Assembly (NCBI GenBank): GCA_010014665.1
Contig: RZYF01000003.1
Location: 1-49,132 of the forward strand
Direction: 5' to 3'
DNA: 49,132 nt
From: Candidatus Saccharimonadota bacterium
GTDB lineage: Bacteria; Patescibacteriota; Saccharimonadia; Saccharimonadales; Saccharimonadaceae
Under the pieces are notes generated by a model. It was not told where the DNA came from, did no database searches, and was given only the letters and a program-made list of their open reading frames with translations. The position numbers were made by a program, and so were the translations under genes. The number at the start of each line of letters is the position of its first letter. Within the stretch, counting starts at the first letter, position 1. This document shows positions 38,827 to 43,330 of the stretch, piece after piece.

Positions 38827-41691
38827 TCACTGATTACTGAGTTTTAATGTAATCGATAACTTCATATTTTCTATCGTCACCATTTCGCTATACCCGTCTT
38901 TCACACTCCCGAATTTCGTAACAAGAGTTTCATCCTTGATTATAACTAAGAAATCATCTATCGATTGCTGTAGCTCTTTATCTTCTGTGGCCAGATTTAG
39001 TTCGATACGATCGTCAATATTTAAGCCTGCATCTTTACGAGCATTCTGAACGTAGCGAATAACTTCACGTATCAAGCCTTCGCGTTTTAGCTCTGGAGTA
39101 ACAGATTCATCAATCGAGACCTCATTGCCAACCTTAACTGATTTTACATTCAATTCATCAAGTAGAATTTGTTTCCAATCAAAGGCGTTACCTAGTTTAG
39201 GTAGAGTTACACTGTTTAGTGGCTGGCGCACTTTCAAACCAGCTATAGCACGTAAACTAAGGCCTTGATTAACATAATTACGCACCTCGTCCATCTCGTT
39301 CATTACAAGCAGATTAATATTTCCAGCTGGCAACCAATCTTTTAGATGAACGGACTCTTTATCGCCCGTTAAATTATCGTGGAGCTCCTCTGCAAGAAAC
39401 GGTGTAAACGGCGCAAGTAAGTAAGATAGGCGCACTAGCACGTAATGCAATGTTCTATAAGCATCATTTTTATCGTCGTCGTCTTCACTTTTCCAGAAGC
39501 GACGGCGACTGCGACGAACATACCAGTTACTAGCATCGTCAATAAATGGTAATATCGGACGAAGCGCGCCATTTAAATCATAGGCTTCGGTTCGTTCTTC
39601 GACCTCCTTAACTAACATATGTAACCGCGAAACTACCCAAACATCGAGTGGGTTAGAAAGTTTATCAAGCGGGTCAACGAGCTTTCCACTATATTCCCAG
39701 CCATCAACTTCGGCATACATCGTAAAGAAATCGTACATATTCCATACCATCGACAATTTACGTGCCACATTCCCCACATCCTTGTCAGCCAGTGCAAAGT
39801 TCTCACCGTTAGTCAGCGGGCTTGAAAGCATTAGAAAACGGAAACTATCAGCACTAAACTTGTCCATCAGCTCTATTGGATCAGTGTAGTTTTTGAGTTT
39901 CTTGCTCATCTTTTTGCCATCGGCAGCATTAATAAAACCGGTACAAATAAGGTTTTTCCACGGCGCTTTACCGAATAGACCGACATTGACCGCTATAAGG
40001 CTATAAAACCAACCGCGGGTCTGATCGATAGCCTCAACGATAAAGTCTGCTGGATACATATCTTCAAACTTTTCCCTGTTCTCGAACGGATAATGAAATT
40101 GCGCAAACGGCATCGAGCCACTTTCGAACCAGCAATCCAGCACCTTGCCGATATGCTTCATCGTCACACCCTCGAACTCAAAAGTAACGTCCATGACCTG
40201 AGGCAAATGATAATCATCAAGTCGCCTACCAGTTAATTCTTCAAATTCATCATAACCACCGATAACTTTAACGACAGTAGTGCCGTCGTTTTTTTCACCT
40301 TTCCAAACAGGAATCGGTGTTGCCCAATAGCGATCCCGGCTTAGATTCCAGTCTGGTGCTTGTTCAATAATATTGTTGAAACGTCCAGTACGAAGATTAT
40401 CTGGTGTCCAACTAGTCTCAGCATTGGCTTCCAGCATCTCTTTTTTCTGACTCTGAATGTCCATAAACCAGCTCGGATGTGCCCGATACATCAACTTCGT
40501 GCCACAACGATGACAGTGCGGGTACTCATGACGAATGTACTCAATCTTGAGTGCCCTGCCTTCTTCAACGAGTGTCTTGGCAATTTCTTTATTTACTTCC
40601 CAGATATTTTGACCAATCCAACGACCTTCGGTATAGTTTCCGTCTGCATCAACGATAGAAAGTACCTCTATGTTGTTAGTTTTACATAGTTCGTAATCCT
40701 CTTCTCCATACGCCGGCGCTTCATGAACTAAACCAGTTCCATCTTCGAACGTAACAAAATCAGCGTGAAGTACTCTGTGCGCATTCGGGCCACGATTTTC
40801 GAACAATGGTTCATAACGTAAGCCGACCAGATCTTTACCTTTAACTTTTCCGACAATTACGTATTCGAGTGTTTGGTGTTTTTCGTTCTGCATTACTCGT
40901 GAAACTGCCTCACTTGCCACGTAAAACTTTTTCCCATCATATTCAACTAACGAATATTCGATACCTTGGTTAACTGCAACCGCCAAGTTTGCCGGTAATG
41001 TCCAAGGTGTGGTGGTCCAGGCTAACATATACTCTTCGCGGTCTTCTAGTTTAAAATACACAAAAACACTTGGGTCGGTGTCGGTCTGATAGCTATTCTC
41101 CATAGCTACTTCTGATTTCGAAATCGGTGTGGCATCTTTAGTGCAATATATTAGGACTTTTTCACCTTCGTAGATTTTGCCATCTTCGTATAGTTTTTTA
41201 AATGCCCACCAAACACTCTCCATATAAGGAGCGTCCATAGTTTTATAAGCACCCTCAAACTCTACCCAGCGGCCAATACGCTCAATCGTGTCTTCCCACT
41301 CGGTACCGGTCTTGACCATACTTGAACGGCATTCCCGTACATAATCAGCTATGCTAATTTTTGTTCCGATATCTTTTTTTGATTCAATACCAAGCTGCTT
41401 GTTCACGTAAACTTCAGCTGGCAGCCCATGACAATCCCAACCCCATGTTCGCTCAACACGCTGACCTTTCATGGTGTGAAATCGTCCCATAACATCTTTT
41501 ACTGTACTCACGAGCAAATGACCATGATGTGGCGTACCAGTTAAAAACGGCGGACCATCATAAAATACCCACCGATCATCTTCTGAACGTTGTTCAATAG
41601 ATTGATTAAATGTGTTTTCTTTTTCCCAACGTTTCGCCCAATCTTTTTCATATTCTAATGCCCTACGTCTTGTTCCTGATTTAAACTTCAT
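38827..41691 (-). CDS. ileS: isoleucyl-tRNA synthetase
   Basis: 954 aa; GPPFLTGTPHHGHLL (HIGH-like), ADGKKMSKKLKN (KMSKS), WGWDCHGLPAEV. Confidence 0.96.
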   Translation of the reverse strand: MKFKSGTRRRALEYEKDWAKRWEKENTFNQSIEQRSEDDRWVFYDGPPFLTGTPHHGHLLVSTVKDVMGRFHTMKGQRVERTWGWDCHGLPAEVYVNKQLGIESKKDIGTKISIADYVRECRSSMVKTGTEWEDTIERIGRWVEFEGAYKTMDAPYMESVWWAFKKLYEDGKIYEGEKVLIYCTKDATPISKSEVAMENSYQTDTDPSVFVYFKLEDREEYMLAWTTTPWTLPANLAVAVNQGIEYSLVEYDGKKFYVASEAVSRVMQNEKHQTLEYVIVGKVKGKDLVGLRYEPLFENRGPNAHRVLHADFVTFEDGTGLVHEAPAYGEEDYELCKTNNIEVLSIVDADGNYTEGRWIGQNIWEVNKEIAKTLVEEGRALKIEYIRHEYPHCHRCGTKLMYRAHPSWFMDIQSQKKEMLEANAETSWTPDNLRTGRFNNIIEQAPDWNLSRDRYWATPIPVWKGEKNDGTTVVKVIGGYDEFEELTGRRLDDYHLPQVMDVTFEFEGVTMKHIGKVLDCWFESGSMPFAQFHYPFENREKFEDMYPADFIVEAIDQTRGWFYSLIAVNVGLFGKAPWKNLICTGFINAADGKKMSKKLKNYTDPIELMDKFSADSFRFLMLSSPLTNGENFALADKDVGNVARKLSMVWNMYDFFTMYAEVDGWEYSGKLVDPLDKLSNPLDVWVVSRLHMLVKEVEERTEAYDLNGALRPILPFIDDASNWYVRRSRRRFWKSEDDDDKNDAYRTLHYVLVRLSYLLAPFTPFLAEELHDNLTGDKESVHLKDWLPAGNINLLVMNEMDEVRNYVNQGLSLRAIAGLKVRQPLNSVTLPKLGNAFDWKQILLDELNVKSVKVGNEVSIDESVTPELKREGLIREVIRYVQNARKDAGLNIDDRIELNLATEDKELQQSIDDFLVIIKDETLVTKFGSVKDGYSEMVTIENMKLSITLKLSNQ

Positions 41692-42512
41692 AGTCTTTTC
41701 TCCTCCCTTAGAACCATTAAACGTTCAACAATTTCATTATGTACTATACCGTTACTCAAAATAGCCCCCTCTATAGGCCGGTCATAACGCTGTTCTTTAC
41801 CGAAGATATCTGTCACCTTACCACCGGCTTCTTCGATAATAACTTTAGCAGCTGCCACGTCTACATTTTTACCTTCTGTCCCAGGAAATAAGCTAGCAAC
41901 AAATTCACCTTTAGCAACAAGCGCACAGGCGTGAGCTATACTACCAATCGTTAGGACATACATACCGGTATCAAGTGCTAGTTGATGAATTACAGGAACT
42001 GGGTCATAGCCCGCCCCTACCCACCAGTCAGCGTTAAAACGAGCTTTTGGTTCGAGGCCTAAGTTGTTGACGTGAATTTGTTTACCGTTCATAAAAGCAC
42101 CGCCCCCAACCATTGATTCATATAACTTATTACCATGAAAATCATATATAACACCTACTTCAGGTACACCGTTACGTGTTAAAGCTAGAGAAAAAACCGA
42201 TACCATTAGCCCCATAATAAACGGGTTTGTTCCATCGATCGGATCACATACCCAGACATATTCGGAATCTCGGTTATAAGATTCTTCCTCACCATACACA
42301 CCGTGATCAGGAAAGCGTTGTTTAACTCTTTCGATAACCCACCTGTTGATTTTTTCATCTGCTTCTGTAACAACTTCGACCGCATCATTTGTTGGCTTCT
42401 TGTAGTGATTTTTTATGTTTTTTTTGTAATAATATTCGCGCATAATTTCTCCAGCCTCATACGCAACAACTTTTGCAAATTCTAGATAATCCTTATTTTG
42501 TTGTTCTATCAT
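41688..42512 (-). CDS. inositol monophosphatase family protein
   Basis: VTEADEKINRWV, VYGEEE, DPIDGTNPFIMG; 4-nt overlap with ileS. Confidence 0.88.
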   Translation of the reverse strand: MIEQQNKDYLEFAKVVAYEAGEIMREYYYKKNIKNHYKKPTNDAVEVVTEADEKINRWVIERVKQRFPDHGVYGEEESYNRDSEYVWVCDPIDGTNPFIMGLMVSVFSLALTRNGVPEVGVIYDFHGNKLYESMVGGGAFMNGKQIHVNNLGLEPKARFNADWWVGAGYDPVPVIHQLALDTGMYVLTIGSIAHACALVAKGEFVASLFPGTEGKNVDVAAAKVIIEEAGGKVTDIFGKEQRYDRPIEGAILSNGIVHNEIVERLMVLREEKRL

Positions 42513-42544
42513 AATTATTTCTCCAAATTAAAATCCTTTCTTCC

Positions 42545-42695
42545 ACTAGAACCGCTTTTTTGCGGTGGTACCATCTAGTTTCCGAAAGGATTGATCCTTT
42601 ACAGCGCTTAATTGTTCGGTCTATCGTGCCGATTCCGACGAGGTCTAGTAGGGTTTACCGTTCTTCTCGTAGCTCGTGGTTGATAGCCACTCTCT
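42545..42695 (-). ncRNA. T-box riboswitch, ultrashort stem I, AUC (Ile) specifier
   Basis: RNA: GUGG-CUAUCAA-CCAC (42690-42676) with AUC in the loop (42684-42682); stem III AAAGGAU-CA-AUCCUUU; ACUAGA-UGGUACC-ACCGC-AAAAAA-GCGGU-UCUAGU (42579-42545) = T-box bulge in an antiterminator/antisequestrator fold; just upstream of the ileS operon. Confidence 0.85.
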
Positions 42696-42742
42696 ATGTT
42701 TTTACAAATAACACAATCGCTCACTTAATATTACGACAATAC

Positions 42743-43330
42743 TTACTGTTTTGCAAAATGTTGCACGACAATAATCTGTTTGCTCGAACCGTTAAACTCG
42801 AAAGCCTTGCGCGCACATAACCCCTCGGCAGTATAATCACCCAAAATGTTCTCTTTGTGCTCTTCACTAACCATCCAGCCCGCTACCACAGCGGTTGGAT
42901 CAGTAAAACCATAAGCTAGGTTTTCACCTGACTTAGAATATTGGACACCGGCTCGCTGAAAAAAGACCCAAGGCTCATCCCCGTCAGGAGTATTATGAGA
43001 CCAGTAATTTCGCTTCACCATGTCGTCAGCTTTTAAACAGGCGGATTCGGCAAGTTTGACACTATATTCCAAAAAAGGTTTTCCAACTTTTTCACGCTGA
43101 GAATTGATTAGTTTATGCAATTGGACAATATCTATATTCTTTTCGAACAAATCATCAGTAGACGAACTATGGTCACTAGAAAATTCACTTAGCGCCTGAG
43201 CATAAGTAGCTTCAATCTTCTTCTCTTTGTCAGATATCATTATCGACTGAAAAATAGTTATACCGAGCAATACGAATACAGCCGGTGCAAGTATTATCGA
43301 TAGTATTTTAGTGTTTATTGAGAAACGCAT
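42743..43330 (-). CDS. secreted/membrane-anchored CAP (SCP/PR1) domain protein
   Basis: N-terminal TM; LHKLINSQREKVGKPFLEYSVKLAESACLKADDM, YWSHNTPDGDEPWVF, GENLAYGF, EEHKENIL. Confidence 0.88.
   Translation of the reverse strand: MRFSINTKILSIILAPAVFVLLGITIFQSIMISDKEKKIEATYAQALSEFSSDHSSSTDDLFEKNIDIVQLHKLINSQREKVGKPFLEYSVKLAESACLKADDMVKRNYWSHNTPDGDEPWVFFQRAGVQYSKSGENLAYGFTDPTAVVAGWMVSEEHKENILGDYTAEGLCARKAFEFNGSSKQIIVVQHFAKQ

Follow-up and report, generated by a model that had tools for sequence, protein, structure and literature searches.

How does a member of the candidate phyla radiation (CPR) adjust the expression of its aminoacyl-tRNA ligases? The question is raised by a minus-strand leader in the genome of a Candidatus Saccharimonadota bacterium (assembly GCA_010014665.1), where it precedes ileS, the gene for isoleucine-tRNA ligase. 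We analysed positions 1 to 49,132 of contig RZYF01000003.1, here called the window. A first-pass annotation, made from the letters alone, had proposed that this leader of a CPR-like genome is a T-box riboswitch with a short stem I and an Ile specifier, placed before an operon of an inositol monophosphatase (IMPase)-family gene and ileS, and our analysis supports this proposal. The IleS protein places the genome in Saccharibacteria. Very probably, the leader works as a T-box riboswitch, with uncharged tRNA-Ile(GAU) as its signal and transcription of the IMPase-ileS operon as the step under control.

The leader contains all parts of a T-box

All parts named by the first-pass annotation are present on direct reading of the minus-strand sequence, and the covariation described below places them far beyond chance. 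One correction concerns the end of the element, which together with the terminator runs to ~42525. What had been called a middle structured region is a stem II with an S-turn motif, followed by a stem IIA/B pseudoknot. The parts are:

42692-42545, minus strand: complete T-box leader, with the terminator end at 42525
42692-42691 and 42675-42674, minus strand: GA steps flanking the stem I hairpin
42690-42676, minus strand: stem I apical hairpin GUGG-CUAUCAA-CCAC, 4 pairs, 100% of alignment cells paired, two-sided changes at each pair
42684-42682, minus strand: specifier AUC (Ile) with a conserved A next to it
42639-42669, minus strand: stem II with the S-turn-like motif AAGAA / ACUAGA; the lower helix covaries
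42616-42638, minus strand: stem IIA/B pseudoknot, UCG/CGA interleaved with UCGG/CCGA
42580-42609, minus strand: purine string AAGCG, stem III and AA, the RRRxG-stem III-AA motif of the discriminator
42604-42582, minus strand: stem III
42545-42579, minus strand: T-box domain (A1, bulge and A2)
42579-42574 / 42550-42545, minus strand: helix A1, ACUAGA/UCUAGU, 99.5% of cells paired, many compensatory changes
42573-42567, minus strand: bulge UGGUACC, enclosed by A1
within 42545-42579, minus strand: helix A2, ACCGC/GCGGU, inside A1, 100% of cells paired, many compensatory changes

Stem I is reduced to a 4-bp stem with the 7-nt loop CUAUCAA and has no tRNA elbow-binding module. The loop reads NNAUCAN in relatives, a statistic that is circular for the triplet because the selection of stem I had required AUC. 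In stem II of the relatives, AAGAA is found in 67/74 and ANUAGA in 68/74 leaders, and 72/74 carry the AA ahead of A1. The RRRxG-stem III-AA motif has been described for T-boxes (PMC7583486). The bulge is UGGUACC in 60/71 leaders and starts with UGGA or UGGC in the rest; that all contain UGGNACC is by construction, as this motif was the search seed. A K-turn at the base of stem I was sought in the window leader and is not clearly seen there. A K-turn-like C-stem at this place occurs in 22/71 Saccharibacteria leaders, where 7 are expected, and in 35/76 phylum hairpins, where 11 are expected.

The helices are maintained by compensatory change

When UGGNACC motifs were scanned for a flanking T-box helix, with no gap allowed before UGG, a T-box domain was found upstream of ileS in most Saccharibacteria loci. 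Thirty-seven leaders, including that of the window, were aligned to a hand-written structure. Standard pairs fill 92.1% of the cells, compared with 75.5% in shuffled alignments; sliding the 3' partners out of register leaves 32-46%. Two-sided changes occur in 29 of the 32 pairs and amount to 208 cells, against 60 in the shuffles. The lower helix of stem II is 98.6% paired, with two-sided changes in 4/4 pairs, and stem III is 95.6% paired, with such changes in 7/7. The helices of the IIA/B pseudoknot are weaker (64-71% paired, in a region where the alignment is imperfect). The second of them, 63.9% paired, covaries in part of the set and has a nearly invariant CG/CG step. The covariation in relatives anticipated by the first-pass annotation is thus borne out for stem I, stem II, stem III, A1 and A2, all of which are supported by the aligned sequences.

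A covariance model built from the 37 leaders, R1, scores the window leader at 124.8 bits (E 3e-30), the window leader itself being in the training set. R1 matches 66/69 Saccharibacteria ileS loci (L061-L133), 23 of which supplied training sequences, and finds a single copy in the source genome. The curated model behaves differently. A match to the Rfam T-box covariance model did not materialise, as RF00230 reaches 23.7 bits over 42544-42760 with a gathering cut-off of 93. At this cut-off it matches nothing in the window or the source genome, and in the latter nothing even at E 10. A scan of 35 CPR loci (20 from the phylum, 15 from Saccharibacteria) likewise gave no score at or above the cut-off. 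Standard annotation with the curated RNA library misses these elements, and had Rfam been used alone, the finding would have been dismissed.

The missing Rfam match could be taken to mean that the leader holds chance hairpins in AT-rich DNA and no riboswitch at all. This is practically out of the question: the E value of R1, the low pairing in the slid controls and the matches at nearly all ileS loci speak against it, and the covariation has already refuted it.

The specifier follows the downstream gene across Patescibacteria

If the element reads a tRNA, its specifier should suit the gene that it precedes. R1 matches are found in 133/380 genomes sampled over Patescibacteria, comprising 33/37 genomes of the window's own class and 100/343 outside it. 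The T-boxes found with R1 lie upstream of ileS, valS, aspS, thrS, tyrS, glyS and argG. We took 100 phylum loci, labelled the downstream genes by NCBIfam and BLAST, and called as specifier any NNC with an A after it in the stem I hairpin, a rule that was seen in the same loci and set without gene labels. The specifier called in this way fits the gene in 70/82 cases; in 10,000 permutations the mean was 24.5 and the maximum 39.

Among the assigned loci, AUC stands before isoleucine-tRNA ligase genes in 36/39 and GUC before valine-tRNA ligase genes in 19/23. Ligases of the Asp type have GAC or AAC in 9/10, and the smaller groups read ACC for threonine (3/3), UAC for tyrosine (1/1), GGC for glycine (1/2) and CGC for argG (1/1). 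The separation of Ile from Val is complete: before ileS there are 36 AUC and 0 GUC, before valS 19 GUC and 0 AUC (Fisher p 3.6e-15). In five GUC leaders with another first gene (L178, L201, L202, L218, L244), valS comes next. At position N of the bulge, Ile and Val leaders mostly have U, Thr and Gly leaders have A, and leaders of Asp-type ligases mostly have C, which is the pattern expected from tRNA discriminator bases. Taken together, the compensatory changes in the main helices and the tracking of the gene's amino acid by the specifier mean, as far as comparison of sequences goes, that the tRNA-reading parts are under selection.

These data also bear on the idea that the leader is a degenerate or constitutive relic of a T-box, or a T-box fold that answers to something besides tRNA-Ile. 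The very small stem I, the missing elbow-binding module and the weak Rfam score would suit such a relic. Strong compensatory change in each main helix would not, and neither would the agreement of the specifier with the amino acid of the gene across many ligases. We consider this idea highly improbable.

Several further features of the phylum set were observed. The stem I loops of other phylum members measure about 5 to 11 nt. GUC T-boxes before valS include those at L167, L173, L197, L203, L225, L226, L252 and L257, among others; Val-specific leaders often have a longer stem I with a CUGUCA loop, and at several Val loci an accessory gene comes first (NAD(P)H-hydrate dehydratase in L178 and L244) and valS second. 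A T-box-like leader with CGC (Arg) at L228 precedes argG, which encodes argininosuccinate synthase and is thus a biosynthetic gene and not a ligase gene. AAC (Asn) is found before aspartate-tRNA ligases, some of them non-discriminating, at L186, L189, L219, L239 and L254. Such leaders would make sense as sensors of tRNA-Asn in cases where a single enzyme serves both tRNAs. In the T-box-like leaders of lysS (L193, L233) and proS (L242), a Lys or Pro specifier was sought and no fitting one could be read.

The presumed ligand was identified in three family members, whose tRNA-Ile(GAU) carries A73CCA and lies beside tRNA-Ala(UGC). With its ACCA end, this tRNA is predicted to be able to pair with both the AUC specifier and the UGGU of the bulge.

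A terminator as the probable OFF state

At which step would such a switch act? The features downstream of the T-box domain and their partner in stem III are:

42584-42592, minus strand: terminator 5' arm AAUCCUUUC, identical with the 3' strand of stem III; the duplex is conserved and covarying in relatives and present in the minimum free energy (MFE) fold
42525-42540, minus strand: 3' arm of the terminator, GAAAGGAUU, with a U-rich tail (together UUUUAAUUU), forming the conserved, covarying duplex
42521-42524, minus strand: Shine-Dalgarno sequence GGAG, outside the terminator and T-box helices, with the AUG at 42512

In the Saccharibacteria leaders, a strand 3' of A1' is complementary to the 3' half of stem III and leads into a U-tract. 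In L074, for example, AAUCACUUCUUUUG is paired with CAAAAGAAGUGAUU-UUU, and in the window AAUCCUUUC is paired with GAAAGGAUU-UUAAUUU. The mean energy of the arm duplex is -16.2 kcal/mol within a species, compared with -9.4 when the arm is taken from another species and -6.8 after shuffling. In register the arms are 76% paired (44-61% when slid), with several pair types per position. MFE folding of the window leader gives the terminator (OFF) form, which gains 7.8 kcal/mol over a fold without the terminator arm; across 74 leaders the median gain is 12.7. As the 3' strand of stem III doubles as the 5' arm, the terminator and stem III would compete for it. These models point to an OFF state that is most likely a transcription terminator and not a sequestered ribosome-binding site, and that most likely excludes stem III while leaving the A1/A2 domain enclosed within. 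Sequestration of the Shine-Dalgarno sequence by the stem III strand was considered separately and dropped, because the complementary strand sits upstream of the Shine-Dalgarno sequence.

The same T-box could instead act on translation, with an OFF helix that hides the ribosome-binding site and a U-rich tract that is incidental. Known short-stem-I ileS T-boxes are mostly translational (PMC10482949, PMC7583486), and the window has an imperfect U-tract, with its Shine-Dalgarno sequence close behind the OFF helix. That sequence nevertheless lies outside the helix, and in most relatives the terminator 3' arm leads directly into UUUUU, with the Shine-Dalgarno sequence further downstream. In addition, a U-run lies within 75 nt of A1' (<=75 nt) in 97/100 phylum leaders, which is weak evidence alone as the DNA is AT-rich. 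Overall, we regard translational control as unlikely, though the most serious of the alternatives.

For the transcriptional switch that we favour, the T-box parts, the Ile specifier, the ACCA-compatible bulge, and the competing helix with its U-rich tract are all shown at the level of sequence and covariation; that tRNA charging controls the lock we infer by analogy with known T-boxes. With charged tRNA or none, AAUCCUUUC would pair with GAAAGGAUU and form an intrinsic terminator enclosing A1/A2. When uncharged tRNA-Ile builds up, AUC would pair with its anticodon, a contact that stem II and the IIA/B pseudoknot would strengthen, and UGGU would pair with its free end. The purine string flanking stem III would then dock and lock stem III. 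Locked in this way, stem III would block the terminator, so that the polymerase could enter the operon.

Several observations weigh against this mechanism. Three of the 69 ileS loci have no R1 match. A search with the Rfam tRNA model and by pattern did not find tRNA-Ile(GAU) in the fragmented source assembly or in the same-genus genome G002, where it may be unassembled, masked or divergent. The window terminator is modest, with 9 pairs (three of them G-C) and a U-tract broken by AA. As A1/A2 is compatible with the terminator, the switch needs competition by stem III and does not follow the textbook route, and in a few relatives the terminator is arranged differently.

Outside Saccharibacteria, the terminator is of the stem III-side type in 29 leaders, an independent hairpin in 32 and on the A1' strand in 17, besides others, a rough typing based on one MFE fold per leader. 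At L177, L178, L197 and ~30 other phylum loci, a terminator-like hairpin begins right after A1' and barely overlaps the T-box helix.

The operon and its surroundings

Two genes follow the leader:

41688-42512, minus strand: first operon gene, inositol monophosphatase family protein (PF00459, Pfam 156.8 bits)
38827-41691, minus strand: ileS, isoleucine-tRNA ligase (TIGR00392, 809.9 bits, cut-off 621.4)

The phosphatase matches no NCBIfam equivalog at its cut-off. Because the start of ileS overlaps the stop of the phosphatase gene by 4 nt, the two most likely form one operon. The phosphatase does not, however, appear to be a special target. Among the 66 matched Saccharibacteria loci, the T-box lies directly before ileS in 39, whereas the other 27 have a stretch in between that mostly holds at least one short gene, the genes varying between lineages. 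On the evidence available, the phosphatase gene travels with the operon as a passenger. By sequence look, the intervening genes of L063-L126 include a GNAT-acetyltransferase-like family common to nine loci, as well as NUDIX-like and GDSL-like genes.

Upstream of the leader, a gene for a CAP-domain protein (PF00188) occupies 42743-43330, ~50 nt before stem I. A sigma-70-like promoter was sought upstream on the minus strand, including the gap after the CAP-domain gene, and none was found. In G002, a divergent tRNA-Gly(CCC) gene (L318, 504-578) lies ~60 nt from the ileS T-box.

Relation to known T-box classes

Judged by its anatomy, the element is a genuine T-box and closest to class III. T-boxes of this class, known from N. 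farcinica ileS, have a short stem I with an apical specifier, require stem II and are mostly translational (PMC10482949), the translational mode being a tendency and not strictly defining. The CPR element shares with the class III T-boxes of Nocardia farcinica and Mycobacterium ileS ('class II translational' in TBDB) the short stem I without elbow-binding module, the apical specifier, stem II with S-turn, the IIA/B pseudoknot, stem III with the T-box bulge, and ileS as a target (PMC10482949, PMC10651847). It differs in its Patescibacteria host, in a Saccharibacteria loop of 7 nt compared with the published 5-6 nt, and in an OFF state that is predicted to be most likely a terminator and not a sequestrator. 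CPR versions also precede valS, aspS, thrS, tyrS, glyS and argG, and the K-turn that class III has at the base of stem I is not evident in the window leader. The likeness to the ileS class of Actinobacteria asserted by the first-pass annotation therefore holds for anatomy, but those elements act mostly on translation, and the conserved terminator found here points to transcription.

With class I (Rfam RF00230, Bacillus tyrS type), the element has in common the purine string-stem III-AA motif, A1, UGGNACC and A2, an S-turn stem II, an F-box-like IIA/B region and, by prediction, control by termination. Unlike class I, it lacks the long stem I, and it scores far below the Rfam cut-off. Textbook T-boxes acting on transcription use the 3' strands of A1/A2 as the 5' arm of the terminator; in Saccharibacteria, stem III supplies this arm with its 3' strand. 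Class IV (Actinomyces odontolyticus ileS) likewise targets ileS and has no elbow-binding module; in the CPR element, unlike class IV, the apical loop carries the specifier. Relatives of Actinomyces odontolyticus serve as hosts for oral Saccharibacteria, which raises the question of T-box transfer.

In TBDB, the search for the translational class covered only Actinobacteria and, in addition, class I hits with a truncated stem I. In the open-access literature, 5.39 million papers (subscription papers and preprints were outside the search), we found no report that joins T-box riboswitches with Patescibacteria, Saccharibacteria or the candidate phyla radiation; four papers in which such terms occur together are medical, judging by their titles. 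The termination mode and the CPR-wide spread of these Nocardia-like parts look new. We think it likely that Patescibacteria hold widespread, undescribed minimal T-boxes that combine a short-stem-I module with transcription termination and serve ligases for many amino acids, and that in Saccharibacteria the T-box domain remains folded within a terminator that is in competition with stem III.

This bears on the view that transcriptional T-boxes need a long stem I and an elbow-binding module for timely capture of the tRNA. Gene regulation in the CPR is almost unknown, and the elements described here would provide a sensor of tRNA charging with a readable specifier over many ligases. CPR organisms are thought to obtain amino acids from their host. 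With such a sensor, the nutritional state of an episymbiont would become directly testable.
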